Below are positions 11,919-43,858 of a DNA stretch of 46,472 nucleotides, one piece after another. The position numbers and the translations under genes were made by a program. The stretch comes from an uncultured Pelagibacteraceae bacterium (GTDB lineage Bacteria > Pseudomonadota > Alphaproteobacteria > Pelagibacterales > Pelagibacteraceae): assembly GCA_905612535.1 (NCBI GenBank), contig CAJQSJ010000037.1, positions 1-46,472 of the forward strand, written 5' to 3'. The stretch's first letter is position 1. Every line of letters starts with the position of its first letter. The notes under the pieces are model-generated. The model was given only the letters and a program-made list of their open reading frames with translations. It was not told the DNA's origin and did no database searches.

Positions 11919-11919
11919 T

Positions 11920-21708: not shown

Positions 21709-22734
21709 TTAATAACCAAGGTTTTTATCAATTCGATTTACAAGCGTTTTATTGTTAATAAATAATTCTAAATTTTTAACAAATAATTCGAGAGTTAATC
21801 TTATGTAACTTTCCCCATCATCAGAAGAGACATGTGGTGTAATGATCAGATTAGGCGTATCCCAAAGTTTGGAATCAAGCTCAATAGGCTCAGGGTCAAA
21901 AACATCCAATATAGCTCCAGCCAATTCATTTGCTTTTAACTTTTCACACAAAACAACATAGTCCATAGCAGATTGCCTTCCTATATTAATAATTCCACAT
22001 GAAGATTTAAGAATATTTAAACGTTCACGATTAATAAGATTTTTAGTTTCCGGTGTTTCAGGAAGAGCTAAATAGAGAATATCCACTTCTGGTAAAATGC
22101 TATCAATTTTTTCTATTGTAACTACCTTTGAGCACCCATCTACGTCGCCACCTTTTTTGTTTACACCAATGATTTTAGCACCAAGTGGGGCAAGCAATTT
22201 TATCATCGAGCCACCAAGCGCACCCGTTCCAATTACCATAACTGTTTTTCCTGCAATTGGGTTGCTAAATAAAGATATAAATTTTTTATTTTTTTGATTT
22301 GTGATAATTTTAGGTAAATGATTTTGGAGCATTAAAACACTCATCAATCCGTATTCCCCAGCCTTTTTTGAGTGCACTCCGCTATTGTTTGTTAACACCA
22401 AACCTTCATGTATCCAATCCAGGGGGATTAAATGATTAATTCCTGAAGAAATACAATGTATCCATTTTAAGTTAGGAGATATTTTTTTTAAGTTTGAAGT
22501 AGGGAAGTTCCATGCAAGCAAAATATCTGAATTAGACATAGATGAATTAAAATTATCTTCATCCCAATCAATGTATATTTCTATTTTTTTTTTAATTTCA
22601 GGAAATTTTTCAAAAACTTTTTCAAAATGAGTGTTTGTTATGGTAAAAACTTTTTCTCCTTTCTCGTCGGTGGGAAATGTTCCGGGGCCCCAATGATTGT
22701 TTTTAACGTGTATTTTTATTTTTTTAGCGTTCAA
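21709..22734 (-). CDS. D-isomer-specific 2-hydroxyacid dehydrogenase
   Basis: This NAD(P)-dependent oxidoreductase interconverts 2-hydroxy and 2-keto acids. The 341-residue product has the Rossmann motif GTGALG at 169-174, and the catalytic Arg253, Glu282 (in DPEPIE) and His301 (in TPHVSS) are all in place. It is most like the hydroxypyruvate/glyoxylate reductase group, without a clear substrate. Its start overlaps the Rieske oxygenase stop by 4 bases, so it probably acts on a product of that oxygenase. Confidence 0.88.
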   Translation of the reverse strand: MNAKKIKIHVKNNHWGPGTFPTDEKGEKVFTITNTHFEKVFEKFPEIKKKIEIYIDWDEDNFNSSMSNSDILLAWNFPTSNLKKISPNLKWIHCISSGINHLIPLDWIHEGLVLTNNSGVHSKKAGEYGLMSVLMLQNHLPKIITNQKNKKFISLFSNPIAGKTVMVIGTGALGGSMIKLLAPLGAKIIGVNKKGGDVDGCSKVVTIEKIDSILPEVDILYLALPETPETKNLINRERLNILKSSCGIINIGRQSAMDYVVLCEKLKANELAGAILDVFDPEPIELDSKLWDTPNLIITPHVSSDDGESYIRLTLELFVKNLELFINNKTLVNRIDKNLGY

Positions 22735-24062
22735 AAATCACCACTTTTTTCCATGCTGGACAGTTTATTAATAATATGATCGTCGCGTTTTTTAAGAGGC
22801 ATTTTTTCTGCATCAAATTGTAATTTCATTACAGCTGAACCAATTGATTTGATAAAGCTACGGTCATCAATATTTCTTTTAGGAACTTTTAGAACTGTAT
22901 CTTGGCCATTAGTTTTTATTATATTGCCTTTTTCTGGTTGAGGTTGAGGAGGCTCTTTGCCTTCTTTTAAATCTTTAATTAGTTTTCTAATACGACGTCG
23001 ATAAATCATTACTCCATAATCAGTTGGCATCAAATGTTCTCCTTTATGAGCACTAATAGATCCCATTCCTTCTACCGCTTCTGCATCACCAGGTCTGTTT
23101 TGTTTTTCTTTCCAAGTTCGATCCATAATTTCTCCAGCTTCAATTCTTTCACATCCTTCTTTAGTGTTATATTCTATTGGATCAGCTCTTTCACCGAAAT
23201 TACCCCAAGCTAAAGCTACGCAATGGTCATTATCAACTGGAACTACCCATCTTGTAAATGAGCTACGACCAAAATAACGAGTTTTAGTTCCATCAGCAGC
23301 GAAAGCGGAACCTGCTTGCGTAAAATTGGGTAATATTAATTCATTAACTCTAACCCAAACAAAGTCATCTACTCTGCGTGTATTACACCCAAGATACTGA
23401 ACACCTCTTTCAAAAAATTCTAATTCACCGACTTCTGCAAAACCTTTAGAAAACTGTATTCCCGAACTTTGCCCATGCAAAAATGAAGTATGAACTGGAT
23501 CCATGATTGCATCGAGTACTTGTATCCAATTGCAATTATATTTTATTCGATAAGGTCTTCTAGTCACTTCCGGGATATCAAACGTATCATAGTGGGGAAA
23601 TTCTGGTATATTTTCTGGCGGGCCCAAGTAAGCAAATATCAAACCATTAAATTCAATTATTGGGTAAGCTCCAAGTTTAAATGTTTCTCTTAATTTAGCT
23701 GCTTGTTTTGAATCTGGATCTTCTCCTGGAGTTTCAAGAATTTCACCATCTGGAGCAAATAACCATCCATGATAACAGCAACGAATACCTTTTTTTTCAC
23801 ATTTTCCATAAACTAATGAAGCTCTTCTATGGGGGCAATTTCTATGAACTAATCCTATTTTGCTTTCTGTGGTCTTAAAAATAACTAAATCTTCACCAAG
23901 AATACGTATTTGTAATGGAGTAGTGCTTACTTCTGAGGATAGCGCAACAGGATGCCAGTACCGCCTCAGGTATTCCCCACCAGGAGAACTGGGTTCAGTT
24001 TGTGATATTGTTTCATCACTTTTTGGTAGTTTTGATTGTTTATAACCTCTAAAATTTTTCAT
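22731..24062 (-). CDS. Rieske non-heme iron oxygenase, phthalate 4,5-dioxygenase-like alpha subunit
   Basis: This is a ring-hydroxylating or demethylating oxygenase component. The Rieske cluster ligands are C76-x-H78 (CPHR) and C95-x2-H98 (CCYHGW). The mononuclear iron site is visible as H191 and H196 in the DPVHTSFLH block. The 443-residue length and N-terminal SPGGEYLRRYWHP segment match the phthalate dioxygenase group, whose members act on aromatic acids and other substrates. No reductase is encoded nearby, so electrons must come from a partner elsewhere. It is transcribed divergently from the second Rieske gene, 69 bases away, and followed by a hydroxyacid dehydrogenase. Confidence 0.88.
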   Translation of the reverse strand: MKNFRGYKQSKLPKSDETISQTEPSSPGGEYLRRYWHPVALSSEVSTTPLQIRILGEDLVIFKTTESKIGLVHRNCPHRRASLVYGKCEKKGIRCCYHGWLFAPDGEILETPGEDPDSKQAAKLRETFKLGAYPIIEFNGLIFAYLGPPENIPEFPHYDTFDIPEVTRRPYRIKYNCNWIQVLDAIMDPVHTSFLHGQSSGIQFSKGFAEVGELEFFERGVQYLGCNTRRVDDFVWVRVNELILPNFTQAGSAFAADGTKTRYFGRSSFTRWVVPVDNDHCVALAWGNFGERADPIEYNTKEGCERIEAGEIMDRTWKEKQNRPGDAEAVEGMGSISAHKGEHLMPTDYGVMIYRRRIRKLIKDLKEGKEPPQPQPEKGNIIKTNGQDTVLKVPKRNIDDRSFIKSIGSAVMKLQFDAEKMPLKKRDDHIINKLSSMEKSGDF

Positions 24063-24088
24063 GACTTTGATTATTATTGATTAATCTA

Positions 24089-24107
24089 TAAATCGCAATT
24101 AGATTTA
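24089..24107. promoter_or_regulatory. Inverted repeat in the divergent Rieske promoter region
   Basis: TAAATC and GATTTA form a 6-base inverted repeat with a 7-base spacer, centred in the 69-base gap between the two divergent oxygenase genes. It is placed where one regulator could control both directions. In a sequence this AT-rich such a repeat can arise by chance, so this is only a candidate operator. Confidence 0.25.
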
Positions 24108-24131
24108 GAATAATTTTTTGAAGGATTTAAA

Positions 24132-25247
24132 ATGGCTAAAAATGGTAAAACTATATATGGACTTCCCGCAAAGTCTTACACAGACCTTCAGTTTTGGAAA
24201 ACCGAATGTAATACTGTTTTAGCGAACGGCTGGTTGTTTGTTGGATTCGCTCATGAGTTTGTAAAATCTGGTGATGCAATTCCCGTTAAAATTGCTGACA
24301 TACCAGTATTACTTATCAAAAATAACACAAACGAAATTACAGCTTTTCATAACGTTTGCAGTCATCGATGCCTTAAATTAGTTAATGAGAAAAAAAATGT
24401 AGGAAAAATTATTCAGTGTCCTTACCATTCTTGGATATACGGCTTAGATGGTAGCTTAAAAGCCTCTCCTCATTTTGGGGGAACCAACAATCATAAACCG
24501 AAAGGATTTAACAATTCAGATCATGGACTTAAACCTATACGTATCCATGTTTGGCATGACTGGATTTTTATAAATTTAAATGGAAAAGCAAAAAAATTTA
24601 AGGAATATGCGAAACCATTAATTAAAAAATTTGATGATATTGATTTTAAAAAATTAAAATATGCAGCAACTTTAGATTTTGGAAAAATAAATACTAATTG
24701 GAAATTTCTTATAGAAAATTTTATTGAACCTTACCATGTTCAATTTGTTCACAAAACAACAACCAATCAACCCTTAAAAGATCATTATACAATTGTAGAC
24801 GGAATTTGTTATGGCAGTGGAGTTGATGTAAAAGAAGAAGATAATAAAAATAGTAGCGCTCTATCTGTTACCTCACGCTACTTATCTCTTTTTCCTAATT
24901 TTATAATTGGGACTTATTTTCCTAATCAAGTTGGGGTGTATTTAAATATACCAATAAGTCCTGGAGTTACATCTCAAAAAAGAATAATTTATACTACTGA
25001 TGGACAAGAAATGACTAAAGAAGAAAGTAATACAGTAAAAAAAATTTGGTGGAGTGTTCACAAAGAAGACCACGAAATGTGCGAAAGATTACAAGAAGGC
25101 AGAGCATCGCCAGCCTCTGATCGTGGCGGACTTTTATCTCCTCACTGGGAAAAAGGGGTTCAGGCATTTAAGAAACTCATAATAAAAGCAACAATGAAAT
25201 CTTCTAAAAGATTGAAAGGGGAAAAAAATGTTCAAAGAAATAAGTAA
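24132..25247 (+). CDS. Rieske non-heme iron oxygenase, choline-monooxygenase/GbcA-like alpha subunit
   Basis: The Rieske ligands are C76-x-H78 and C96-x2-H99 (CPYHSW); the catalytic iron ligands H202 and H207 sit in NFIEPYHVQFVH. The 371-residue length and the short Rieske-to-iron spacing resemble oxygenases acting on quaternary or methylated amines (choline, glycine betaine, carnitine), but the exact substrate is unknown. It is first in a seven-gene operon; the next gene starts 20 bases inside its 3' end with a GGGG-containing ribosome binding site. No reductase gene is present in the operon. Confidence 0.86.
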   Translation: MAKNGKTIYGLPAKSYTDLQFWKTECNTVLANGWLFVGFAHEFVKSGDAIPVKIADIPVLLIKNNTNEITAFHNVCSHRCLKLVNEKKNVGKIIQCPYHSWIYGLDGSLKASPHFGGTNNHKPKGFNNSDHGLKPIRIHVWHDWIFINLNGKAKKFKEYAKPLIKKFDDIDFKKLKYAATLDFGKINTNWKFLIENFIEPYHVQFVHKTTTNQPLKDHYTIVDGICYGSGVDVKEEDNKNSSALSVTSRYLSLFPNFIIGTYFPNQVGVYLNIPISPGVTSQKRIIYTTDGQEMTKEESNTVKKIWWSVHKEDHEMCERLQEGRASPASDRGGLLSPHWEKGVQAFKKLIIKATMKSSKRLKGEKNVQRNK

Positions 25248-26081: not shown

Positions 26082-27506
26082 ATGAATAGTAAAATAGAAA
26101 AAATTTATTATGAAAACTTTAAAGATGCAGTTGAACGAAATAGAAAAAAACTACCAGCTCTTCATAAAAAACTAAAAGACGCAGGTGTAAAATACATTTT
26201 ATCTAGCTGGATTGATCTCCACGGCATACCAAAATCTAAACCAGTTCCTATGAGTGATTTTGAACCTTTGTGTTTAGGTAAAGGTCCACAATTCGCAGTT
26301 CATTCTATTTCCTTTGTTCCTGAACTCACTCCAGCGGACTCAGATCAAGTAATGCTGCCAGATCTAGATTCAGTTTATATTTGTCCATGGGACAAAACAA
26401 CAGCTATAATTTTCGCAGATCTTTTTTGGGAAGACAAACCTTACAATGTTTGTCCCAGACAAGCTTTAAAGCGCGCTATGCAAAAAGCTCAAGATGCAGG
26501 ATATAAAGGTATGGCAGGTATCGAACCCGAATTTATTGCTATGAAGTATGATGAAAATGGGCAACCTGTAAAAGCAATTGATACTGATCCTATCAAAGGA
26601 ATTAGACCAAGACGACAAGCTTTTGGCTACGACGTAGAACATTCAATAGACTCAATGCATTTTCTAAAAGAATTAATAGATATTCTTAACGATTTAGGAT
26701 GGAAATTACACGACGTTGTTGCAGAAGGTGCTTACTCACAATTTGAATTAGATTTTCATTACACAAATCTTTTAGAGATGGCTGACAGGCTAGTTTTTTT
26801 ACGTATTCTATTAAAAGAAGTAGCTAAGAAAAATAATATGTTTATTACATTTATGCCAAAACCAACAATAGGTGATTGGAGATCAGGAGCACATATTAAT
26901 TTTTCGATGGTTGACGAGTCTGGTAAAAATATTTTCGATGGAGGAAACAAATGGTCCAAAGAAACTTTATTTGCAGTTGGCGGATTAATGAAGCATTCGG
27001 AAGCTCTAACTTCTATTACATGCTCAACAGTAAACTCTTACAATGGGTTAGTTCCAAGAGTCGGAGGTTTCGAAGGTGGCACTGTTACTTGGGCACCAAC
27101 TAATATTACTTATGGCCACAACAATAGATCAGCGCAATTTCGTTTACCACAAAACAGATATTGTATTGAAAATAGAGCTGCAGATATGACGATGAATGTT
27201 TATTTGGCACTTTCTATGACTATTTCAGCTGCGGTTGAAGGAATAGAAAAAAAAATTCACCCAGGAGAGCCAACTGATCAGGATTTATACAACATGACCG
27301 AAAGTGAATTTAAAAAACTTGGCATCAAAAGACTACCAAGAAATTTACTAATGGCTATTGAAGCTTTAAAAAATGATAAACTATCTGATGAAGTTTTGGG
27401 ACCTGTTATGAAAAAATCATTACTTACTTATAAAAATGATGAATGGGAACGTTATCACCAGGCAGTTACTGACTGGGAAGTAAAAGAATATCTCAGATTG
27501 TATTAA
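26082..27506 (+). CDS. Type III glutamine-synthetase-like gamma-glutamyl-amide ligase
   Basis: This is an ATP-dependent ligase of the glutamine synthetase fold. The 474-residue product shows the N-terminal beta-grasp domain, the metal-binding GIEPEF motif (near 147), SGAHINFSM in the ATP/glutamate site and NRSAQFRLP with an active-site arginine. Together with its length, this fits the GlnT/PuuA/gamma-glutamylmethylamide synthetase group, which joins glutamate to amines, rather than housekeeping GlnA. It lacks the adenylylation-loop context of GlnA. AAGGAGA, 6 bases before the ATG, is the strongest ribosome binding site in this operon. Its amine is most likely the substrate or product of the neighbouring oxygenase. 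Confidence 0.85.
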   Translation: MNSKIEKIYYENFKDAVERNRKKLPALHKKLKDAGVKYILSSWIDLHGIPKSKPVPMSDFEPLCLGKGPQFAVHSISFVPELTPADSDQVMLPDLDSVYICPWDKTTAIIFADLFWEDKPYNVCPRQALKRAMQKAQDAGYKGMAGIEPEFIAMKYDENGQPVKAIDTDPIKGIRPRRQAFGYDVEHSIDSMHFLKELIDILNDLGWKLHDVVAEGAYSQFELDFHYTNLLEMADRLVFLRILLKEVAKKNNMFITFMPKPTIGDWRSGAHINFSMVDESGKNIFDGGNKWSKETLFAVGGLMKHSEALTSITCSTVNSYNGLVPRVGGFEGGTVTWAPTNITYGHNNRSAQFRLPQNRYCIENRAADMTMNVYLALSMTISAAVEGIEKKIHPGEPTDQDLYNMTESEFKKLGIKRLPRNLLMAIEALKNDKLSDEVLGPVMKKSLLTYKNDEWERYHQAVTDWEVKEYLRLY

Positions 27507-28520
27507 TGAAAGATTATGAGACTTTTGATTTAGGAGACACAAATCTCCTTTCGGGAGAAATTTTAAAATCTGCAAAGTTGACCTACAAAACATACGGAAA
27601 TTTAAATAAAAATTCTGATAATGTTATAGTTTTACCCACTTTTTATACCGGGACACATAATAGAAATGAAGGTTTTTTTGGATCAGGTCGAGCCATTGAT
27701 CCAAATAAACATTTTGTTGTTTCAATCAATATGTTTGGAAATGGCTTGTCATCATCACCAAGTAATAGTGAGAATCTACAAGATGGACCACGTTTTCCTG
27801 ACATAACATTGTGGGATAATATTAATTGTCAGCAAAAACTATTAACTCAAAAATTAAAAATAACTAAAATTGCTTTAGTGACTGGCTGGTCAATGGCCGG
27901 TTGCCAAGCTTATCAATGGGCAGCTCAATTTCCTGATATGGTAAAATCTATTCTACCATTTTGTGCTTCAGCAAAAACATCCATACATAACCATGTTTTT
28001 TTTAGAAGGTGTTAAAGCCGCACTTATTGCGGATAAAAATTGGAATAATGGAGATTACAAATCACCTCCAATTGCAGGACTAAAATCATTTGGCAGAGTG
28101 TACGCAGGCTGGGCATTTTCACAGGATTTTTTTAGAGAGGAACTTTTTAAAAAACTAGGATTTGAAACAGCAGAAGAATTACTTAAAGATTGGGAGGATG
28201 ATCATGCTAAACATTGGGACGCAAACAACTTATTAGCTAAACTTAAAACATGGCAAACATCTGATATTAGTTCTGGACCCACTTATAATAATGATTTTAA
28301 AAAAGCATTGAGATCAATAACAGCTCGCACAATTTTAATGCCGTGTAATCAAGATTTATATTTCAGAACTAAAGATAATGAAATTGAATCTAAATATATT
28401 CCAAATTCAGTTTTAAAACCTATAGATTCTTCTTTTGGTCATTGTGCGGCTAATCCGGGGAATGATAAAAATTTTGAATTACAATTAGATCAAAATATTA
28501 GCAAATTATTAAATGAATAA
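27506..28520 (+). pseudogene. MetX-like alpha/beta hydrolase (homoserine acetyltransferase family), one frameshift at an 8-T run
   Basis: The two halves are in different frames. The first (from ATG 27506) has the MetX-type start and the nucleophile elbow GWSMAG (Ser129). The second has the remaining core, with an acid residue in NQDLYF and the catalytic His in SSFGHCAANPG. Removing one T from the 8-T run at 27996-28003 joins them as HNHVF-LEGVKAAL and gives a normal 337-residue protein. The family includes homoserine and serine acetyltransferases and plain hydrolases. It starts on the last base of the ligase stop codon (TAATG). It could be a sequencing error, a real mutation, or rescued by slippage. 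Confidence 0.75.
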
Positions 28521-30497: not shown

Positions 30498-31679
30498 TTA
30501 TCTTTGAGCTTTAGTCTTAAATTTACCACCTTTAACTTCTTTTTCTAAGAAAGAACCAAAAGATTCTCCAACGTCCGTGAAGGTAACAGCGGTTGCTCCT
30601 TCATAATCAACTGCTTTTCCTTTAGCCAAAAGGTCTAACCCCTTTTTTAATTGACCAGGATAGATTTTTGTTCCTGGGCCATTAGCTACAGCCATTACGT
30701 TTTTAGCAATTGAAGCACGATCAGCTGAATTGCCAGCTTGCATCGCAAGAACGATTAAAGCTGCTGCGTCGTAAGATTCTCCAGTGTATGGACCAGATGA
30801 ATCTATTCCAGCTGCTTTTGCAACTTTAGTAAATACTCCAGCACCTTTACCGGTAGAACCTGGTAAAGAACCAAATGATTTATTTAAACTTTTACCAAAA
30901 GTATCTGTAAGAGAATCGCCGATCATACCATCTGATAATATAAATGTATCAAAGGCACCAGAATCCATAGATCCTTGAATAATTCCTTTACCACCTTGAT
31001 CAAGATATCCAATCACGGCAACAGCATCTCCACCTGCGGAAGCTAATACTGCAACTTCAGAGCTATAGTCAGCTTTACCATCTTCGTGTGCTGCTACTGT
31101 TGTAACTTTAATACCATGAGCTTTAACTGCTGCTTCGTAAACATCAGCTAAACCTTTACCATAGTCATTGTTAGTATATGTGACTGCAACACTTTTAATT
31201 CCTCTGTCTTTAGTAATGTCAGCAAGAATTTGACCACCACGCGCATCAGATGGAGCGGTTCTAAAAAAGAAACCTTTATCATCTAATGTAGTTAAACCAG
31301 GTGATGTTGCTGAAGGCGAAATCATAATTACACCTTTTGGTACCGCAACATTACTTGCAATCGCTCCAGTAACACCAGAACAATCTGCTCCCATAATTGC
31401 AACAATACCTTGCGATATTAATCCTTCTGCGGCAGTTGTTGCGGCAGCTGAATCAACACAAGTTGAATCTGCTCTTAAAGGTTTAATTGTTTCTCCACCA
31501 AGCAAAGAACCTGAATCAGAAGCTTCTTTAAATGCTAATTCTGCTGACGCTGCCATTGCTGGAGTTAGAGACTCAATAGGACCAGTAAATCCTAAAATAA
31601 TTCCCACTTTGATTTCTGCAAATGTGCTTGTCGATATTAAAGACAATGACATAATTGCAGCTATAAATAGTTTTTTCAT
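30498..31679 (-). CDS. Branched-chain-amino-acid-type periplasmic binding protein (Peripla_BP_6)
   Basis: The 393-residue precursor has a signal peptide (positively charged start, hydrophobic core, cleavage after STFA, about residue 21). It is followed by the HAAT-family binding-protein start EIKVGIILGFTGPIESLTP and a two-lobed Leu/Ile/Val-receptor fold, with TNNDYGKGLADVYE in the hinge region. Such proteins feed LivHMGF-type importers and bind amino acids, amides or aromatic acids. No permease gene is beside it. It has its own promoter and terminator, which fits high expression of a receptor. The livGFHM genes about 16 kb upstream lack a binding protein and could be its partner. Confidence 0.9.
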   Translation of the reverse strand: MKKLFIAAIMSLSLISTSTFAEIKVGIILGFTGPIESLTPAMAASAELAFKEASDSGSLLGGETIKPLRADSTCVDSAAATTAAEGLISQGIVAIMGADCSGVTGAIASNVAVPKGVIMISPSATSPGLTTLDDKGFFFRTAPSDARGGQILADITKDRGIKSVAVTYTNNDYGKGLADVYEAAVKAHGIKVTTVAAHEDGKADYSSEVAVLASAGGDAVAVIGYLDQGGKGIIQGSMDSGAFDTFILSDGMIGDSLTDTFGKSLNKSFGSLPGSTGKGAGVFTKVAKAAGIDSSGPYTGESYDAAALIVLAMQAGNSADRASIAKNVMAVANGPGTKIYPGQLKKGLDLLAKGKAVDYEGATAVTFTDVGESFGSFLEKEVKGGKFKTKAQR

Positions 31680-31779: not shown

Positions 31780-33261
31780 TTATCGCATTGAAAATGGGTC
31801 CTGAGTTGGTTTATCAGAAGTATGAAACCAAACTGTTTTTACTCTTGTATAATCCTTAATAGATTCAATGCCCGCCTCTTTACCATATCCACTATCTTTT
31901 ATACCTCCGAAAGGAGCTGAAGGAGAAATTAATCGATAAGTATTAACAAAAGTAATTCCCGCCCGGATTGCTTTTGATACTCTAAGGCCTCTACCAAGAT
32001 CTTTTGTATAAATCCCCGAAGATAAACCATACTGATTGTCATTCATTTTTTTTATCACTTCATCTTCAGTATTAAATTTCATTACCGATAGGACGGGACC
32101 AAAGAGTTCATTTTCTGCAGTTGGAAGATTATGGTTTTCACATTCAATAATTGTGGGGGGAAAATAATAACCTTTATTTGAAAAGGCATGTCTTTTCCCT
32201 CCACATTTTACTTTTCCACCCTGATCAATTGTAAGTTTTATATTTTTTTCTATTATTTCTAATTGTTTAAAATTACTTAGTGGCCCCATTTCTGTATCAT
32301 CATCCATAGGAGCTCCAATCTTAATTTTTTTTGCACGACTTGTTAGCTTATTTAAAAACTCATTATAAATACTATTTTGTAAGTATAACCTTGAGCCAGC
32401 AATACAACTTTGACCACTAGCTCCAAATATTCCTGCTGTTATTCCATTAATTGCGTTTTCTTGATCTGCGTCTTCAAAAACAGCAACTGGACTTTTCCCG
32501 CCAAGCTCTAAACTTACTTCAGATAAATTTTCTGCAGAGTTTTTGATTATATGTCGTGCAGTATTAGGACCACCCGTAAAGGCAATTTTTTCTACAAGCT
32601 TATGTGTGGTTAGTGACTTTCCACATGGATCACCAAAACCAGTAATTACATTAACAACACCTTTGGGGATTCCAGTTTTTTCTATTAATTTTGCAAATTC
32701 AAACATTACTGCAGGTGCCAACTCTGAAGATTTAATTACAACCGTATTTCCCATTGCTAATGCTGGCGCGAGCTTAGTTGCGGTTAATAACATTTGAGAA
32801 TTCCACGGGATAATAGCAGCAATTACTCCAATAGGAATTCTGGTCGTTATAACTTGTGTGTTAGGTTTATCAATTGGCAAAACAGTTCCTTCAACTTTAT
32901 CTGCCATACCCGCATAGTAATCATAATATTCTGCTATATAATTTGCTTGTTTTTTTGTTTCTCTAAACAATTTACCTGTGTCTATTGTTTCAATTTTTCC
33001 TAATAGCTCAGCATTGTCTCTTAGTTGATTACCTATTGATCTTAAAAATTTACCTCTCTCTCGTGGCATGAGTTTTGGCCATTCGCCTTCGAATGCTTTT
33101 TGCGCAGCCTTAACCGCTTTATCAACATCTTTAGCATTAGCTTCAGGCACTTTCGCCCAAGGTTCATTGTTTTCTGGGTTTAGAGTTTCAAAAGTTTTTT
33201 TACTCTCAGATTCGATCCACTCTCCATCAATGAACATTTTATATTCTTTAAGTTTAGGCAT
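31780..33261 (-). CDS. NAD(P)-dependent aldehyde dehydrogenase
   Basis: This enzyme oxidises an aldehyde to its acid. With the ATG at 33261 the product has 493 residues. The catalytic cysteine is C286 in GASGQSC, the general base E252 in LELGG and N154 in the PWN motif. I chose this start because GGA lies just ahead of it and the product begins like other family members; other starts (ATG 33264 and 33270, TTG 33276) are possible. It overlaps the start-proximal hydrolase stop region by a few bases and is last in the LLM-DUF1185-hydrolase operon. Relatives include betaine-aldehyde and aromatic-aldehyde dehydrogenases; the substrate is unknown. Confidence 0.9.
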   Translation of the reverse strand: MPKLKEYKMFIDGEWIESESKKTFETLNPENNEPWAKVPEANAKDVDKAVKAAQKAFEGEWPKLMPRERGKFLRSIGNQLRDNAELLGKIETIDTGKLFRETKKQANYIAEYYDYYAGMADKVEGTVLPIDKPNTQVITTRIPIGVIAAIIPWNSQMLLTATKLAPALAMGNTVVIKSSELAPAVMFEFAKLIEKTGIPKGVVNVITGFGDPCGKSLTTHKLVEKIAFTGGPNTARHIIKNSAENLSEVSLELGGKSPVAVFEDADQENAINGITAGIFGASGQSCIAGSRLYLQNSIYNEFLNKLTSRAKKIKIGAPMDDDTEMGPLSNFKQLEIIEKNIKLTIDQGGKVKCGGKRHAFSNKGYYFPPTIIECENHNLPTAENELFGPVLSVMKFNTEDEVIKKMNDNQYGLSSGIYTKDLGRGLRVSKAIRAGITFVNTYRLISPSAPFGGIKDSGYGKEAGIESIKDYTRVKTVWFHTSDKPTQDPFSMR

Positions 33262-34048
33262 CATTTCCATTATCAATAAATTCTCTGATTGTTAAATTAA
33301 AATTTTCAGCACATTCGATATTACAGAGATGTCTTCCACTTTTTATTATTTTACACAAGCTTCCTTTAATTAATTTGCATATTTCTTCACTCATTCTAGG
33401 TTTTGATCCTATATCTTCTTCGCCAGTTATTATAAGAGTTTTGGCTGTAATTTGTTTTATTTTTATATCATCATCCTGATGTTCAACAAAAAATTTGTAA
33501 ACTTTTAACCAAGTTTCTTGATTAGTTTTTTCTAATATTGAGTAAATTTTTTTATAAATCATAGGGTTTTCTTTTAAAAACTTTTCTGAAAACCATCTTT
33601 GCACAGCTTTTACTTTAGTGTTATCTTTTTTCAATTTCATTGTTTCGTACCTATTAATTATCTGTCTTTTTTCATCTTCTGACCTCTTATAAACAGTTCC
33701 AAAAAGTACAAGTGAACTTAATCTATTGCTAAAAGAAGAAGCAAAATCTCTTGCAATAAGTGATCCCAATGAAAAACCCACTAAATGAAATTTATTTATT
33801 TTTAAACCATCGACTAATTTAAGCAATTGTTTAGAAAAATCTTTCATAGCAATTTGTTTATTATTGAAAGGTGTTTTTCCGTGACCAATTAAGTCATAAA
33901 CAATTGTATTGTAGTTCTTAAAATAATTTATTTGTTGATCCCATATTTCATGATTTAGACCAATACCATGAATAAATATTATTGGAATATTCTCATTATG
34001 CTTATTAAATTTATAATAAGTTTCAAAAGAATCTGATGTTTTTGACAT
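33254..34048 (-). CDS. Alpha/beta hydrolase (3-oxoadipate enol-lactonase-like)
   Basis: The 264-residue protein has the HG oxyanion motif (27-28), the nucleophile Ser93 in GFSLG, a cap region in the middle and a C-terminal histidine in SGRHLCNIE. The pattern resembles PcaD-type enol-lactonases and RutD-like hydrolases, but the substrate is not shown. In the operon it could open an ester or lactone made by the flavin monooxygenase. Its stop overlaps the aldehyde dehydrogenase start. Confidence 0.8.
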   Translation of the reverse strand: MSKTSDSFETYYKFNKHNENIPIIFIHGIGLNHEIWDQQINYFKNYNTIVYDLIGHGKTPFNNKQIAMKDFSKQLLKLVDGLKINKFHLVGFSLGSLIARDFASSFSNRLSSLVLFGTVYKRSEDEKRQIINRYETMKLKKDNTKVKAVQRWFSEKFLKENPMIYKKIYSILEKTNQETWLKVYKFFVEHQDDDIKIKQITAKTLIITGEEDIGSKPRMSEEICKLIKGSLCKIIKSGRHLCNIECAENFNLTIREFIDNGNDA

Positions 34049-34052
34049 GGCG

Positions 34053-34649
34053 CTAAGTCGTTTTAGGATCTTTTATTCCCATTTCTTTCATATCTTGATA
34101 GCGATCGCCAGTTCTTGCATGAGCTCGCCCACTAGATGAGCCGCCAATAGCTATCACAATTTCGTCTTCACATGGAGCGTCATGAATAGTAAATTCATGA
34201 GTTAAGTAATAAGGTCTCAAACCTGAATCAGTTTTATGCATCATTGGAATTGAAATTTTACAGCCAGCAGGCCCCCTTGTGTTTGTAAAACTTAAGTAAG
34301 AAGTTCCACCCACGGCCTCTCTAAATTTATTTCCAAATCTTAATGTATGAATAAAAGCAGAAGCGTGTTCAATTTCACCTTTTAAACCAACAACACCCGC
34401 TTTACCGTAAGCTAAAATTTTTTCTGGAGATCCTATTTCTTTAATTAATTCTGGAACAAGTACATCGCCAAGTTTAGGTGCCAAATCTAATATTATTGGT
34501 TTTAAGTCTTCTACAAAACCTTTTTCAGACCAAGGATTTTTAATTACGGCAGCAACAGAAACTAACAGGACAGGTTCTTTTGCCACTTTACCACCTTCAA
34601 TGAAAGTTTTGTCTACAAATTTTGAAAATTTTCTTAGTTTTAAATCCAT
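34053..34649 (-). CDS. DUF1185 (amino acid synthesis family) protein
   Basis: The 198-residue product matches the DUF1185 pattern: a central AAVIKNPW motif, the AFIHTLRFGNKFREAVGGT block and the ending RAHARTGDRYQDMKEMG. The family has a solved fold but no established reaction. It is often annotated as an amino acid synthesis protein, which is not evidence of function. It sits between an LLM monooxygenase and an alpha/beta hydrolase with gaps of 1 and 4 bases. Confidence 0.85.
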   Translation of the reverse strand: MDLKLRKFSKFVDKTFIEGGKVAKEPVLLVSVAAVIKNPWSEKGFVEDLKPIILDLAPKLGDVLVPELIKEIGSPEKILAYGKAGVVGLKGEIEHASAFIHTLRFGNKFREAVGGTSYLSFTNTRGPAGCKISIPMMHKTDSGLRPYYLTHEFTIHDAPCEDEIVIAIGGSSSGRAHARTGDRYQDMKEMGIKDPKTT

Positions 34650-34650
34650 A

Positions 34651-35817
34651 TTAACTTGCGCGCTTAATATTTTGTTTACTTGTATTAATCTTAGGAATCA
34701 CCTCTTCATTAAAAAGCTTTATACTTCTCATCGCATCTTCATGTCTAACTCCTGGAAAATTAGACCAAACTAACAAATTTTTAAGGTTTAATTCTGCTTG
34801 TAATTCTTTTATTTTTTCTATCACGTAATCAGGGGTACCAAATAACATATTTCTTTTATGTAAAAATTCATAATCTAACAAGTCTGTTTTACCTTTAGTT
34901 ACAGGAAGTTCTTCGCCAGGATCCATATGATTTCCTAACCCTCTCCAGTGGCAAACCCATTTCATATAATTTACCATATGTTCTCCGGCTAATTTTTTTG
35001 CATCTTCCATTGTTTCGGCAACAAACATGTCTCTAACCAAAGTAATCCCTTCTCCCATAGGAACATCTCTTTTTTCTGTTTCAGATTTAGCATTCTTATA
35101 AACTTCAAATCTTTTTTTTAAAGTTTTGACTGTTGGAATCCACATAATACAATTAATTCCATTTTTTGCAGCCCATTCAATTGAACTAACGGAGTCGACA
35201 ACTTGCGTTATAGGAGGATGAGGCTTTTGATATGGTTGAGGTATAACACTTATTTTTTTAATCTCATTTGTTTTTAAATCTACAATTTCTTTGTTTGGTG
35301 GGCTCATATCATGCTTCCAAACATAATTGGGAGATGGATAAGTATAAAATTCACCCTTATGGTTAAAAAATTCTTCCGTCCAAGCTTTTTTCATTATTGA
35401 TAAAGTTTCTTGAAATAGTCTTTTATTTTTCGCTTGGTCTTTTAAATCTGCTTCTACGTTCAGATGAACAGCTTCTCTTCCGTAAACACCTCTGCCGATT
35501 CCAACTTCAACTCTTCCTTTAGAAAGGTGATCTAATATTGCTATATCTTCCGCTAATCTAATTGGGTTCCAAAAAGTTATTGTATTACAAGCTTGTCCCA
35601 GTCTTATTTGTTTTGTTCTTGCGGCTATATCCGTGCACATAATTAATGGATTAGGACATGCTTCCATACCCTCATGATTAAAATGATGTTCAGTAAACCA
35701 AATAGAATTCCAATTATTAGCATCGCAGTATTTAGCAATCTCTCTAGCTTCGTTTAAAATTTCTATATGAGGCTTTTTATTCCAATTGGTCGTATTACAA
35801 AAATACCCAAACTTCAT
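34651..35817 (-). CDS. LLM-class flavin-dependent oxidoreductase (luciferase-like monooxygenase)
   Basis: This is a flavin-dependent monooxygenase with a TIM-barrel luciferase-like fold of 388 residues. Characteristic blocks are WFTEHHFNHEG near residue 40, RTKQIRLGQACNTITFWNPIRLAED and the GRVEVGIGRGVY loop. Such enzymes need reduced FMN from a separate reductase, and none is encoded in the operon. It is the first gene of a leftward operon with DUF1185, an alpha/beta hydrolase and an aldehyde dehydrogenase, so it probably starts that pathway by oxygenation. The TATCTCCC-type ribosome binding site on the minus strand is clear. Confidence 0.88.
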   Translation of the reverse strand: MKFGYFCNTTNWNKKPHIEILNEAREIAKYCDANNWNSIWFTEHHFNHEGMEACPNPLIMCTDIAARTKQIRLGQACNTITFWNPIRLAEDIAILDHLSKGRVEVGIGRGVYGREAVHLNVEADLKDQAKNKRLFQETLSIMKKAWTEEFFNHKGEFYTYPSPNYVWKHDMSPPNKEIVDLKTNEIKKISVIPQPYQKPHPPITQVVDSVSSIEWAAKNGINCIMWIPTVKTLKKRFEVYKNAKSETEKRDVPMGEGITLVRDMFVAETMEDAKKLAGEHMVNYMKWVCHWRGLGNHMDPGEELPVTKGKTDLLDYEFLHKRNMLFGTPDYVIEKIKELQAELNLKNLLVWSNFPGVRHEDAMRSIKLFNEEVIPKINTSKQNIKRAS

Positions 35818-35999: not shown

Positions 36000-37112
36000 A
36001 TGAATAAAAAAACAGTAGTAAATAGCTGGAATGAGTGGGATCCATTAAAACATGTTATTGTTGGTCGCGCTGATGGTTCATGCATACCTGCATCTGAACC
36101 GGCTCTTGATGCAAAAGTTCCCGAGGATTCGGACATGAAAGGCAAGCATGGTCCTAGACCGCAAGAAACAGTTGATAAAGCAAATGAACTTCTTGATAAT
36201 TTTGTTTCTATTTTAGAAAAACGTGGAATCACTGTTGATAGACCAACGCCAATTAATTTTAATCAATCAACATCGACGCCTGACTGGAAAGCAGAAACAA
36301 TGTTTGGATGCATGCCTCCAAGAGATGTGCTTTTAACTGTTGGAAAAGAAATTTTAGAAGCAACTATGAGTTATAGATGTCGTTGGTTTGAGTATTTATG
36401 TTATAGATCAATTTTACAAAGATATTATAATGAAGATCCAAAAATGCGCCATGAAGCAGCACCTAAACCAAGGCTTACAGATTTGGATTATCATAAAGAT
36501 TATTTATCAGATAAAATTGGAGTACAAAAAAGATTAGAGTGGGCAGAAAAAAAATTTTTTGTGACTACCGAAGAAGAACCTTTATTTGATGCAGCAGACG
36601 TTTTGCGATTTGGTAAAGATTTAATGGTTCAACATGGTTTTACAACAAATTTAAAAGGAATTGATTGGTTAAAAAGACATTACAAAGATCATAGAGTACA
36701 CGCATTAAATTTTCCTGGAGACCCTTACCCAATTCATATTGATGCAACTTTCACACCAATTAAACCTGGGTTAATTATAAATAATCCGCAAAGACGTTTA
36801 CCAAAAGAATTAAGAAAAATTTTTGAAAAAAATGATTGGAAAATTGTAGATTCAGCCCAACCAGCACACAATGAACCCCCTCCACTTTGTTATTCATCAA
36901 CATGGTTGTCAATGAACGTTTTGATTTTAGATCCAAAAACTGTATGTGTTGAAAAAAGTGAAGTTTATCAATGCGAGCAATTAGATAGATTGGGAATGGA
37001 AGTTATCCAAGTTGATCTAAGAGATGCGTACGCTTTTGGTGGAGGCCTGCACTGCTGTACAGCGGATGTGTACAGGGAAGGCAAATGTGAGGATTATTTT
37101 CCAAATCAATAA
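36000..37112 (+). CDS. Amidinotransferase, glycine amidinotransferase (AGAT)-like
   Basis: AGAT enzymes move the amidino group from arginine to glycine or another amine. The 370-residue protein carries the family's active-site blocks in order: FDAADVLRFGKD near 196-207, FPGDPYPIHIDATF with the catalytic His246, and LGGG-type C-terminal GGGLHCCTADV with catalytic Cys352. These match eukaryotic AGAT closely. Bacterial relatives also use lysine, inosamine or other acceptors, so the acceptor is unsettled. The creatinase gene starts 2 bases after its stop, which suggests a linked use of guanidino compounds. The start has no strong ribosome binding site. Confidence 0.85.
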   Translation: MNKKTVVNSWNEWDPLKHVIVGRADGSCIPASEPALDAKVPEDSDMKGKHGPRPQETVDKANELLDNFVSILEKRGITVDRPTPINFNQSTSTPDWKAETMFGCMPPRDVLLTVGKEILEATMSYRCRWFEYLCYRSILQRYYNEDPKMRHEAAPKPRLTDLDYHKDYLSDKIGVQKRLEWAEKKFFVTTEEEPLFDAADVLRFGKDLMVQHGFTTNLKGIDWLKRHYKDHRVHALNFPGDPYPIHIDATFTPIKPGLIINNPQRRLPKELRKIFEKNDWKIVDSAQPAHNEPPPLCYSSTWLSMNVLILDPKTVCVEKSEVYQCEQLDRLGMEVIQVDLRDAYAFGGGLHCCTADVYREGKCEDYFPNQ

Positions 37113-37114
37113 TT

Positions 37115-38329
37115 ATGAATAGACCTGACTTTTTTGAATTAAAAAATGGATCTAAGGTAAAGCTTCCATTTTCTACATCCGAGTATCAAAGTAGATTAGA
37201 TAATCTAAGAAAAGTCATAAGTAAAAACAATCTAGATATGATTATTTTAACATCAATGCACAATATTGCTTACTACACTGGGTTTATTTATTGCTCATTC
37301 GGAAGACCATACGCTTGCGTCATTACAGAAAAAAAAATAGTAACGATTTCTGCCAATATTGATGCTAGTCAGCCGTGGAGACGTTCAGCGTATGATAATA
37401 TTATTTATACGGATTGGAAAAAAGATAATTTTTTAAAAGCTATTGTTTCAATAATTCATAAAGATGAGCCTCCCAAAAATATAGGCATCGAAAATGATCA
37501 TGTAACCGTTGAAATGAAAGAAAATTTAAGTTCTCTATTTAGTTTTTCAAATTTTAATGATGTTTCAAAGGAATTAATGAAACTTCGCATGATCAAATCT
37601 AACGAAGAAATAAAAATAATAAAAGATGGTGCAAAAATAGCTGATATTGGAGCCGAAGAAATGATTAAACATATTAAAGTGGGCGCTAGCGAATTGGAAA
37701 TCGCAATATCTGGAAGAGATAAAATGGAAGTTGAAATTGCAAAGTTGCACCCAAATGCTGAATATATGGATACATGGGTGTGGTTTCAATCGGGTATCAA
37801 TACAGATGGTGCACATAACCCAAAAACATCAAGAAAATTAATCTCAGGCGACATACTTTCGCTCAATACATTTCCGATGATATCTGGTTACTATACTGCA
37901 TTAGAAAGAACATTATTTTTAAATAAAGTTGATGACGAATCCTTAAAAGCTTGGGAAGCGAATATAAAAGCACACAAGAGAGGTTTAGAGCTAATAAAAC
38001 CTGGTGCAAAATGCTCAGCAATATGCGAAGAATTAAATGATATTTTCGCTCAACTTGGTTATCTTCAATATAGAACTTTTGGGTATGGGCATTCTTTTGG
38101 AATTCTCTCCCACTTTTATGGAAGAGAATCTGGATTAGAACTTAGAGAAGACGTCGACACTATTTTAAAACCGAATATGGTTATTTCTATGGAACCAATG
38201 ATAATGATTCCAGAAGGAAAACCTGGAGCTGGAGGGTATCGAGAACATGATATTCTTGTTATTAAGGAAAATAGCGCTGAAAATATTACAAAATTCCCTT
38301 TCGGACCAAACCACAACATAATAAAATAA
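37115..38329 (+). CDS. Creatinase (creatine amidinohydrolase), M24-fold
   Basis: Creatinase splits creatine into sarcosine and urea. At 404 residues the product matches the length of the Pseudomonas enzyme (403). It also shares creatinase-specific blocks: TISANIDASQPWRRS with DNIIYTDW near 77-101, MDTWVWFQSGINTDGAHNP with the catalytic His234 (His232 in Pseudomonas), TFPMISGYYTALERTLF and MPEGKPGAGGYREHDIL in the creatine-binding region. It ends with FPFGPNHNIIK. The M24 metal site of aminopeptidases is not kept, as in creatinase. Close relatives might act on other guanidino acids. It overlaps or nearly touches its neighbours, so it is in one operon with the amidinotransferase. Confidence 0.88.
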   Translation: MNRPDFFELKNGSKVKLPFSTSEYQSRLDNLRKVISKNNLDMIILTSMHNIAYYTGFIYCSFGRPYACVITEKKIVTISANIDASQPWRRSAYDNIIYTDWKKDNFLKAIVSIIHKDEPPKNIGIENDHVTVEMKENLSSLFSFSNFNDVSKELMKLRMIKSNEEIKIIKDGAKIADIGAEEMIKHIKVGASELEIAISGRDKMEVEIAKLHPNAEYMDTWVWFQSGINTDGAHNPKTSRKLISGDILSLNTFPMISGYYTALERTLFLNKVDDESLKAWEANIKAHKRGLELIKPGAKCSAICEELNDIFAQLGYLQYRTFGYGHSFGILSHFYGRESGLELREDVDTILKPNMVISMEPMIMIPEGKPGAGGYREHDILVIKENSAENITKFPFGPNHNIIK

Positions 38330-38333
38330 TTTA

Positions 38334-39083
38334 ATGTTAATAAAATCAAAATATATAACTCCAGAGTTTAAAAAGAAATATAATCCAAAAGTAGGTTTAC
38401 TTGCATTGTCCACTGATCTTACTATAGAGAAAGATTTTAATTCTATATGCAATAAACTTCCACTTGATGTATTTGTTAATCGAATCCATAACGAAAATCC
38501 GTTAACTACAGAAAACCTTTTAAAAATGCGTGAACAAATTGAGTTGATTACAGAAAAAATTTTACCTGGAGAAAAAATTAATACAGTAGCTTATGGTTGC
38601 ACATCCGGAACAATAGCTATTGGCGAAGACAAAGTTAAAGAAAAAATTCAATTAGCTAAACCAGATTGTTACGTAACCACGCCAATTACCTCAGCCATTA
38701 AAGCTTTTAAATTGATGAATATAAAAAAAATTGCCGTTTTTACACCGTACCCAGAATCTGTAAATAAAACTATTTATCAATATTTTTTTAAAAAAAATAT
38801 TGAAGTTCTGTCATTTGGTACATTTAATTTAGAGTTAGATGCTGATTTTGCAAACATTGATCCAAAATATTTATCAGAAACCCTAATTAAATTAGACACA
38901 AACGGTGCGGATGCACTTTTTATCTCATGTACAGCTTTACCTGCTTTAGAGATTCTTAATGAAGTGGAAAAAAAAATAAGCAAACCAGTTTTTTCTAGTA
39001 ATCAAACATTAATTTGGGATACCATAAGATCTGTTGGATATAAAACTCCAGTAGAAGGATATGGTCAACTTTTTAAGAAATAA
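38334..39083 (+). CDS. Asp/Glu racemase-superfamily protein, ectoine utilisation EutA-like
   Basis: The 249-residue product has the two-cysteine active site of the Asp/Glu racemase, maleate isomerase and arylmalonate decarboxylase group: C89 in YGCTSGT and C199 in SCTALPALE. Length and the PITSAIKAF block resemble EutA of rhizobial ectoine-use clusters, where it stands beside the ectoine hydrolase. Here the DoeA-like gene follows after 2 bases. Its reaction in ectoine use is not firmly known. Confidence 0.7.
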   Translation: MLIKSKYITPEFKKKYNPKVGLLALSTDLTIEKDFNSICNKLPLDVFVNRIHNENPLTTENLLKMREQIELITEKILPGEKINTVAYGCTSGTIAIGEDKVKEKIQLAKPDCYVTTPITSAIKAFKLMNIKKIAVFTPYPESVNKTIYQYFFKKNIEVLSFGTFNLELDADFANIDPKYLSETLIKLDTNGADALFISCTALPALEILNEVEKKISKPVFSSNQTLIWDTIRSVGYKTPVEGYGQLFKK

Positions 39084-39085
39084 AA

Positions 39086-40255
39086 ATGCTTTTTGAAAAA
39101 ACAGAATACAAAGAAAGATTAAAAAAAATTAAAGGAGCAATGCAAAAAAAAGGCATTGACTTATTAGTAGCCCATGATCCGGCTAATATGAATTACCTTA
39201 CAGGGTATGACGCTTGGTCTTTTTATTATGCCCAATGTGTTTTGGTTCATATCAATGAGGAAGAGCCAATTTGTTTTCTCAGAGCGCAGGATGCTGGCGG
39301 AGGTCACATAAAAACTTATGTACACTCAAAAAACATTATAGCTTATGACGAAAAATATATTCACACATGGCCACTTCATCCATATCAATATTTAGTTGAA
39401 ATAATAAAAGAAAGAAAGTGGGAGAAATCTATTATTGGTCTTGAGATGGATAGTCATTATTTTACTGCTTTTTGTTATGAAACAATAAAAAAAGGATTGC
39501 CCAATGCGAAATTCAAAGATGCAGAACGCTTGGTTAATTGGGCAAGAATTGTTAAATCAGATTCAGAAATTAAATTAATGCAAGCGGCTGCTCTTATAAG
39601 CGAAAAAGCAATGAAAACAGCTTTCAATATTATTAATCCCGGAGTCAGACAGTGCGATGCTGTAGCAGATATCCAAAAGTCTTTGTTTAATGGAACACCA
39701 GAATTTGGTGGAGATTATGCTAGTATTGCGACTTTGCTACCTACAGGAAAAGGAACTTCAGCTTCACATCTAACGGCAACTGAAGATAAATTTGTCAAAG
39801 GCGAAGCTACTATTATTGAAATTTCAGGTGTACATAAAAGATATCATTGCCCCATGGCTAGAACAGTATTGTTGGGAGAAAAGAATCAGAAAAAAATAGA
39901 CACCATGAAAGCAACAAACGAAGCGTTAGATGCTGGTATTGCTGCAACAAAACCAGGCAATACAGCAGATGATGTTGCTCAAAAGTTTTGGGGAGTTTTA
40001 GATAAATACGGAATTAAAAAAGAGTCTAGAACTGGATACTCAATAGGTATTGGTTACCCGCCAGACTGGGGTGAACAAACATTAAATATATTAAAAGGTG
40101 ATAAAACGATCTTACAACCTAATGTTACATTTCACATGATAGCTGTAATGCAGTTTGGTGAATGGGGAGTAGAGGCCAGCGAATCTGTAAGAGTCACAGA
40201 AACAGGATCAGAATTATTCTGCAGTTTATCTAGAGAATTACATATTAAAGCATAA
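39086..40255 (+). CDS. M24-family hydrolase, ectoine hydrolase DoeA/EutD-like
   Basis: The 389-residue pita-bread protein is homologous in fold to creatinase but clearly different. It has MNYLTGYDAWSFYYAQ near residue 33, GLEMDSHYFTAFCYE, VNWARIVKS and the IGYPPDWGEQTLNI block that is typical of DoeA/EutD ectoine hydrolases, which open ectoine to N-acetyl-diaminobutyrate. DoeB and DoeD-type partners are absent from the window, so an alternative substrate such as another cyclic or amidine solute is possible. It follows the EutA-like gene by 2 bases. Confidence 0.65.
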   Translation: MLFEKTEYKERLKKIKGAMQKKGIDLLVAHDPANMNYLTGYDAWSFYYAQCVLVHINEEEPICFLRAQDAGGGHIKTYVHSKNIIAYDEKYIHTWPLHPYQYLVEIIKERKWEKSIIGLEMDSHYFTAFCYETIKKGLPNAKFKDAERLVNWARIVKSDSEIKLMQAAALISEKAMKTAFNIINPGVRQCDAVADIQKSLFNGTPEFGGDYASIATLLPTGKGTSASHLTATEDKFVKGEATIIEISGVHKRYHCPMARTVLLGEKNQKKIDTMKATNEALDAGIAATKPGNTADDVAQKFWGVLDKYGIKKESRTGYSIGIGYPPDWGEQTLNILKGDKTILQPNVTFHMIAVMQFGEWGVEASESVRVTETGSELFCSLSRELHIKA

Positions 40256-42557: not shown

Positions 42558-42589
42558 AAAAAAGGCGAGATGCAAATCTCGCCTTTTTT
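42558..42589 (+). terminator. Strong hairpin terminator/attenuator between binding protein and permease genes
   Basis: A-run 42558-42563, GGCGAGAT (42564-42571), a GCAA tetraloop (GNRA type), ATCTCGCC (42576-42583) and six T's form a perfect 14-base stem that can end transcription in both directions. It lies 16 bases after the binding-protein stop and 17 bases before the permease start. It probably lets only some transcripts read through into the permeases. Confidence 0.9.
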
Positions 42590-42605
42590 GTTTAGGGATA
42601 AATTT

Positions 42606-43858
42606 ATGAACGAAACAACAGCAGGAACTATATTAACTACAGACGGAATTCCGTTAAAAATTAGTCTTCAAAAATCTGAAAGAAAAAATAAAATAAGAGC
42701 TTTTCTTTTAGTAACACCACTTTTATTTTTTATACTTTTTACATTCTTAATTCCTATCGGTGATATGTTGCTTCGAAGTGTTGACGATAGCTATATTAAT
42801 ACAGTTTTCCCAAAAACTTTTGAAAAATATAAAAAATGGGACAGGCAAGGTTTACCATCCGAAGAACTTTATGAAACAATGTTCTTTGAAATCAAAGAAG
42901 GTTCAGGCTATAGCGTAGGTAAAGCTACTACCCGAATGAATTACGCAAAATCGGGTTGGAAAAGTTTACTAAAAAAATCAAAACGTAAATTTAAAAAAAT
43001 TGAAGAAGGTCCATTCAAAGAACAAATGATTGCAATCGACAAAAGATGGGCTGATATGGAATATTGGAAAGCTATAGGAGTGATGGTTGATCCCACAACA
43101 GCAGGATATTTTCTAAATGCAGTTGATTTAAAATATGATGTTAACAAAGAAGTTATTCGACAAAAGGAAAATAGAAGAATTTACAATGCCACATGGTTTA
43201 AAACATTTAAGGTGAGCGTTTTAGTTATGTTTTTTTTGTTTGATTTTGGGTTATCCAATTGCTTACTTACTAGCTACACTACCTTTGAAATACAGCAATC
43301 TTTTAATGATATGTGCTGCTGCCTTTTTGGACATCCTTGCTTGTTCGAACTGTAGCGTGGATGGTTATGTTGCAACAAAAAGGTGTTTTTAATAATTTAT
43401 TAGTTATGTCTCATATTATTGCAGATGAGAACCGCTTTGCACTTATGTATAATCAAACAGCAACTATCATTGTAATGACGCAAATATTATTACCTTTTAT
43501 GGTTTTGCCTCTGTACAGTGTTATGAAAACAATTTCGCCAAACTATATGAGAGCAGCTTTAAATCTAGGAGCTTCTCCTTTACATGCTTTTTATAAAGTT
43601 TATATGCCAAATTCAGTACCAGGAATTAGCGCGGGATGTATGCTCGTGTTTATACTTGCGATTGGATACTATATAACACCTGAATTGGTTGGAGGTAAGG
43701 ATGGCCAAATGATAGGAAATTGGATTGCTTACCATTTAAAAACAACTTTAAATTGGGGGCTGTGTGCAGCTTTAGGGGCTATTCTTTTAGGTGTGATGAC
43801 AGTTTTATATTGGGTTTATAATAAATTAGTTGGAATAGAAAATATTAAATTAGGATAA
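42606..43858 (+). pseudogene. PotB-like ABC transporter permease, two frameshifts
   Basis: The start is ATG 42606, after an AGGGAT site; an upstream ATG at 42570 lies inside the terminator stem. The first 200 residues have a membrane helix and the large periplasmic insert of the marine PotB type. The frame is lost at the 8-T run 43230-43237. Removing one T gives MFFCLILGYPIAYLLATL. A second shift near 43308-43314 (two bases missing, or one too many, in ATATGTGC) then leads to VLLPFWTSLLVRTVAWM and the EAA loop LNLGASPLHAFYKVYMP. The repaired protein would be about 416 residues. Without it the importer would lack one permease. Confidence 0.8.

Follow-up and report, generated by a model that had tools for sequence, protein, structure and literature searches.

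The window analysed here is a stretch of 46,472 nucleotides from an uncultured Pelagibacteraceae bacterium of the SAR11 group (assembly GCA_905612535.1, contig CAJQSJ010000037.1). Its reverse strand carries an operon of four genes, encoding a luciferase-like monooxygenase (LLM), a DUF1185 protein, an alpha/beta hydrolase and an aldehyde dehydrogenase (ALDH), and behind them lies a gene for a periplasmic binding protein:

34651..35817, reverse strand: LLM, 388 aa, first gene of the operon (PF00296, E 6.8e-41)
34053..34649, reverse strand: DUF1185 / AA_synth protein, 198 aa, TgnF-like subfamily, Tyr147 (PF06684, E 5.6e-63)
33254..34048, reverse strand: alpha/beta hydrolase, 264 aa, TgnD-like (PF00561, E 1e-23)
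31780..33270, reverse strand: ALDH, 493-496 aa depending on the start chosen (PF00171, E 9.2e-163)
30498..31679, reverse strand: HAAT-type (Peripla_BP_6) periplasmic binding protein (PF13458, E 4.7e-29)

The four operon proteins all exceed the Pfam cut-offs. PF06684 scores 212 bits against a cut-off of 27 and is covered over its whole profile (1-175/175), and PF00296 scores 141.1 bits against 27.9. For the hydrolase, the nearest NCBIfam models are of the PcaD type, with scores under the cut-off. A single base separates the LLM from the DUF1185 gene, four bases separate the latter from the hydrolase, and the hydrolase and the ALDH overlap by 8-17 bases, since the ALDH may start at any of three in-frame ATGs (33270, 33264 or 33261). 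A scan for promoters and terminators was uninformative (22 promoter-like sites against 20.3 expected, and one terminator-like site against 2.0).

We compared the window with 80 SAR11 loci, the best 80 of 468 relatives, picked by likeness to the window DUF1185 protein (87-95% identity). Most of them are labelled Pelagibacteraceae or Pelagibacterales. The order LLM, DUF1185, hydrolase, ALDH is intact in 70 of these loci and in the other ten a contig end falls inside the gene set, therefore the grouping exceeds what would be expected by chance. Gene content farther from the operon differs among the loci. The binding protein lies on the same strand, at most 1.6 kb from the ALDH, in 45 of the 62 loci with at least 2.5 kb of downstream sequence, and is a probable uptake partner of the operon. 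A preliminary description of this DNA had proposed that the four genes, spaced by 1 and 4 bases and then overlapping, form a chain and act as one unit, with an associated HAAT-type binding protein after it; coordinates, Pfam matches and the SAR11 loci bear this out. Among near-full-length matches, DUF1185 has the highest median identity to the window with 91% (80 loci), ahead of the ALDH with 83% (69), the LLM with 75% (74) and the hydrolase with 48% (75). This ranks DUF1185 first for conservation in the operon, but choosing the loci by DUF1185 likeness favours it.

In 147 Pelagibacterales genomes, the DUF1185 gene is present in 48, the LLM in 51, and both in 47 (Fisher p 1.6e-32, uncorrected for kinship). 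The genomes with only the LLM are G435, G437 and G447, where a contig end separates it from the rest of the set, and G496, where the LLM is of another kind. In the genome with only DUF1185 (G423), the gene begins 628 bases from the contig start, a position that points to a contig-end cut. With the marker gene in about one third of the sampled genomes (48/147), some of the sea's commonest cells would count the operon's substrate among their nutrients.

As a reference we use the tgn genes for trigonelline degradation in Acinetobacter baylyi, reportedly described by Perchat et al. 2018; the family names TgnA-E and the tgn intermediates are used as we presume them to be. DUF1185 was surveyed in 398 Pseudomonadota genomes, 59 of which carry PF06684, and 73 neighbourhoods were compared. 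This set omits the window's own genome and a 40-residue fragment (G159:C12), and tandem copies count as one locus. The loci divide cleanly by likeness to the window DUF1185, 22 of them scoring 190-238 bits and the other 51 only 46-98. In the first group, the subfamily of the window, the neighbours include an ALDH and a hydrolase in 22/22 loci, an LLM in 19/22 and a TgnA-type reductase in 15/22 (16 counting L156). For the 51 loci of the other subfamily the corresponding numbers are four, four, zero and zero, and some neighbours are branched-chain-type ABC (ATP-binding cassette) transporter parts and MarR regulators, in agreement with excerpts of PMC2954203. The window protein lies inside the TgnF-like clade with a support of 100 (all trees are quick trees with SH-aLRT, i.e. 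approximate likelihood-ratio, support only).

The operon context had been put forward as a clue to DUF1185, with a link of DUF1185 genes elsewhere to LLM or hydrolase genes as the test. Both ideas stand for the TgnF-like branch and fail for the rest of the family, and a family-wide link is ruled out. The DUF1185 question is thereby narrowed, as one branch is tied to ring-opening catabolism and the other has different neighbours. It had also been said that DUF1185 has no known reaction. A lack of any functional lead is not supported, as an excerpt of PMC7913881, which cites the trigonelline-pathway paper, names TgnF of A. baylyi as a homologue of a DUF1185 protein and states that it boosts TgnE-dependent succinate-semialdehyde oxidation.

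Tandem DUF1185 pairs were also seen. One lies on the Arthrobacter dokdonellae plasmid pDCT5 (L277, 2353-7068) together with a hydrolase, an ALDH, a tautomerase-family gene and a TgnB-type LLM, and such pairs are present in several other genomes.

Residues conserved at 90% or more alike in the tgn-type, Pelagibacterales and other rows of the DUF1185 alignment include R6, N38, K83, H95, R110, R145, D157, E163 and R179. Position 147 of the window protein is aligned with His144 of BB2672, a residue that is strictly conserved and solvent-exposed according to excerpts of PMC2954203; this His is a conserved residue and not a Pfam family criterion. It is a His in 75 of the 77 rows outside Pelagibacterales, and a Tyr or Phe in all 18 rows inside, Tyr147 in the window. 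The structure model of the window protein has modest confidence (mean predicted local distance difference test score, pLDDT, 63.9). The leading matches in the structure comparison are the solved structures of DUF1185 relatives, 3byq (Z 15.6) and 2qtp (Z 15.1). Rid-family, chorismatase and chorismate-mutase chains reach Z 4.7-5.9, where values below 8 may mean a common arrangement only. Cyanuric acid hydrolase was considered as a fold relative and reaches only Z 4.4.

The oxygenase is of a different kind. The window LLM shares 24-26% identity with the 19 surveyed LLMs of the TgnB/L156 type, which among themselves are mostly 36-78% identical (those compared), it carries an insertion of about 26 residues missing from them, and it branches apart from the TgnB-type and the L156-type LLMs (supports 98 and 93). 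The low identity and the separate branch rule it out as an orthologue of TgnB. The closest relative outside Pelagibacterales in our sample belongs to the alphaproteobacterium G728 (L290) and is 55% identical to a SAR11 LLM. The gene order at L290 is flavin reductase, window-type LLM, DUF1185, hydrolase, ALDH. As L290 pairs a window-type LLM with a flavin reductase in the order of the window, a two-component LLM dependent on FMN (flavin mononucleotide) is supported, and the window LLM is probably FMNH2-dependent. The swap of the LLM is not unique to SAR11, since L290 and L291 (G728 and G742) have window-type LLMs near a TgnF-like DUF1185, a hydrolase and an ALDH. In both loci DUF1185 retains the His at position 147. 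In seven further loci (L292-L298) no DUF1185 was seen near the window-type LLM, and neither a G099 locus (L200, LLM 33% identical) nor a Peribacillus plasmid match has such neighbours.

The preliminary description noted the missing flavin reductase. Indeed, the window's genome (57.55% complete) gives no PF01613 match, nor does any of 35 Pelagibacteraceae carriers of the operon; PF01613 is present in 7 of the 13 carriers of the other Pelagibacterales family. A PF03358 FMN_red-family protein, a family match with putative FMN reduction, was found in all ten Pelagibacter carriers examined. A nitroreductase was considered as a substitute and set aside, being seen in only one of ten carriers.

Some SAR11 genomes carry an additional LLM of 347 aa with a hydrolase behind it and no DUF1185 alongside. 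At L249 (16229-19084) it adjoins a carnitine-dehydrogenase-like gene and at L245 (3405-6725) an ALDH.

The hydrolase and the ALDH were compared with those of the tgn-like locus L180. Pelagibacteraceae ALDHs are 48-52% identical to the L180 ALDH, and Pelagibacterales hydrolases are 29-36% identical to the L180 hydrolase (30-36% for those of Pelagibacteraceae), with a weak placing in the tree. The SAR11 ALDH is sister to the ALDHs of operons with a thiamine pyrophosphate (TPP) enzyme (SH-aLRT 89). In 27 of the 78 SAR11 loci having both genes, a gene is inserted between the LLM and DUF1185. A second ALDH is ruled out for this gene, as it encodes a TPP enzyme, resembling acetolactate synthase and sulfoacetaldehyde acetyltransferase under both cut-offs. 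Among the non-SAR11 loci L156 and L268-L271, ALDH, hydrolase and TPP enzyme are found in 5/5, an LLM in 4/5 and DUF1185 in 3/5; L268 and L271 keep LLM, ALDH and hydrolase and have no DUF1185. A sixth TPP locus, L272, is without ALDH, hydrolase, LLM and DUF1185.

The most economical reading, in our view, is that these genes form a compact operon for the catabolism of an N-heteroaromatic compound, whose ring is opened and the resulting product broken down. In this reading the layout follows the tgn plan with a different LLM, and the likely substrate is homarine or trigonelline. In our judgement the chances that this is correct are about even, and the substrate and every reaction step in what follows are what we infer. 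The HAAT binding protein would bring in an N-heterocycle that is small and zwitterionic, the most likely candidates being the N-methylpyridinium carboxylates homarine and trigonelline. FMNH2 for the LLM would come from a housekeeping flavin reductase encoded at another genomic site. The LLM would then insert O2 and cleave the ring to yield an N-formyl enamide with an aldehyde group (or the lactol of that aldehyde). The ALDH would oxidise the aldehyde, and the hydrolase would strip the formyl group as formate. Subsequent enamine hydrolysis would leave a C4-C5 acid together with methylamine. DUF1185, with a putative Rid/chorismate-mutase-like fold, would probably accelerate a slow spontaneous step, either enamine/imine hydrolysis or the lactol opening that feeds the ALDH. 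The reaction chain proposed earlier was of the right kind in its oxygenation, amide or ester hydrolysis and aldehyde oxidation; its lactone opening is one possibility, and for its unknown DUF1185 step the homologue TgnF is a lead.

Homarine is attractive as the substrate for its abundance in marine particles (0.6-67 nM), in which trigonelline is scarce (1-300 pM), as given in excerpts of PMC8269262. A more specific version is that SAR11 opens the ring of homarine (N-methylpicolinate) by a TgnB-independent LLM, that DUF1185 is a Rid-like enzyme for enamine hydrolysis or lactol opening, and that the change from His to Tyr or Phe tunes it to the new intermediate. Taken as a whole, this version seems quite unlikely to us.

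Several points weigh against a homarine or trigonelline ring-opening operon as described. Substrate choice is set by the oxygenase, and this part is not shared with tgn. According to excerpts of PMC8269262, TgnA/TgnB does the ring opening of the trigonelline pathway and, by a steric argument, is unlikely to act on homarine. That PF03358 proteins reduce FMN in these carriers is a presumption from family membership. The TPP enzyme of the 27/78 SAR11 operons would add a step that the tgn chemistry is not known to need. With Z values below 8 and a model of such modest pLDDT, the likeness to Rid, chorismatase and chorismate-mutase chains may be a common arrangement. HcdD, a DUF1185 protein of another pathway, had no effect in its authors' assays.

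Other substrates have to be weighed against this. The operon could act on a compound other than a pyridinium: a lactone, an aromatic amide, or a different amine, quaternary or cyclic. The tgn-like helper proteins would then have been recruited to an aldehyde or amide intermediate of a similar kind. Beside the L290 operon lie a Rieske oxygenase and an FAD (flavin adenine dinucleotide) amino-acid-oxidase-like protein, which would suit such a substrate, as would the TPP enzyme in many SAR11 operons and a DUF1185 gene in a coumarin pathway, which involves no nitrogen ring. However, in the tgn-type loci read in detail the subfamily's trio of DUF1185, hydrolase and ALDH accompanies an LLM and NCS1 or ABC transporters, and we consider a non-pyridinium substrate not very likely. 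The locus could also be a plain trigonelline operon with the same substrate and products, where TgnB was swapped for an LLM of another subfamily and the reductase was lost by genome streamlining. Three of the four operon proteins have their kin among those of the tgn type, L180 has the matching order LLM, DUF1185, hydrolase, ALDH with the flavin reductase behind, and excerpts of PMC8269262 state that Ruegeria pomeroyi grows more poorly on homarine than on trigonelline. This explanation is unlikely given the strong divergence of the LLM from the TgnB type, the loss of the family-wide DUF1185 His in 18/18 Pelagibacterales rows and the scarcity of trigonelline in sea particles.

DUF1185 might not be an enzyme at all but a stabiliser or regulator of the dehydrogenase, which is compatible with any of the substrates. 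The single effect told in the excerpt of PMC7913881 is the stimulation of TgnE by TgnF, and the protein is absent from two of five TPP-enzyme loci, L268 and L271, which retain LLM, ALDH and hydrolase. The nine polar or charged residues conserved in all three groups of rows, however, suit a catalytic or ligand site, and DUF1185 has the highest conservation in the operon, which makes a non-enzymatic role rather improbable.

The rest of the window contains other catabolic and transport genes. A divergent cluster at 36000-40255 encodes an arginine-deiminase-like protein, two M24 peptidases and a EutA-like protein, followed by a PotABCD-like transporter, and resembles an ectoine catabolic cluster. 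One of the M24 peptidases is DoeA-like (461 bits, cut-off 613) and the EutA-like protein scores 205 bits (cut-off 318). Parts of this cluster recur beside the operon in many SAR11 loci. ATPases and permeases of a branched-chain-type ABC transporter are encoded at 10417-14297 with no binding protein adjoining, and the binding protein at 30498-31679 may serve them. Two Rieske oxygenase genes are found at 22731-25247, one of them GbcA-like (142 bits, cut-off 670); a Rieske gene also adjoins the L290 operon. At 27506-28520, a homoserine-acetyltransferase-like gene (MetX-type, named by eye) is divided between two frames that overlap, likely by a frameshift or an assembly error, and a PotB-like permease gene (named by eye) at 42570-43858 is broken likewise.

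Among known systems, the tgn genes of A. baylyi are the first to compare. They share with the window the clustering of a TgnF-like DUF1185, an alpha/beta hydrolase, an ALDH and an LLM, and the order of these genes in the window equals that within L180 (LysR, NCS1 permease, LLM, DUF1185, hydrolase, ALDH, flavin reductase). In one locus of Acinetobacter, the genus where the tgn pathway was worked out, the consecutive genes are DUF1185, hydrolase, flavin reductase, LLM, ALDH, an NCS1-type permease and another ALDH. On pSymA of S. meliloti the same core of five is followed by an ABC transporter and an annotated succinate-semialdehyde dehydrogenase, and the title of a 1991 paper places trigonelline genes on pSym of Rhizobium meliloti. 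The window contains the TgnF-like DUF1185 and the TgnC-/TgnD-type ALDH and hydrolase, the hydrolase being weakly placed. It differs in the LLM, which is of another subfamily than TgnB, in the TgnA-type flavin reductase (PF01613), missing from the cluster and from the Pelagibacteraceae carriers, in the second ALDH, which is not beside the operon, and in the Tyr at DUF1185 position 147.

The TPP-enzyme operons of alphaproteobacteria (L156, L268-L271) share a related ALDH and hydrolase with the window, and three of the five have DUF1185. Their TPP enzyme resembles the one in many SAR11 operons (58-62% identity, four measured). Their LLMs, however, group with TgnB, and the window operon itself is without a TPP enzyme. 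L290 has the gene order and the LLM type of the window but keeps the PF01613 flavin reductase and His147, and a Rieske oxygenase and a LysR regulator adjoin it.

Homarine catabolism as in Ferrer-Gonzalez et al. 2026 possibly concerns the same substrate class in marine bacteria. An excerpt of PMC13390433, which cites that paper, states that the enzyme Mgd participates in homarine catabolism. Literature searches on SAR11 with trigonelline and homarine, and on a homarine operon, gave nothing useful, and the tgn names returned mostly noise. Should the 2026 paper report this set of genes, homarine would be the substrate and the finding would not be new; we do not claim that the operon is unpublished. 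We regard it as a variant on the known tgn plan with a different oxygenase.

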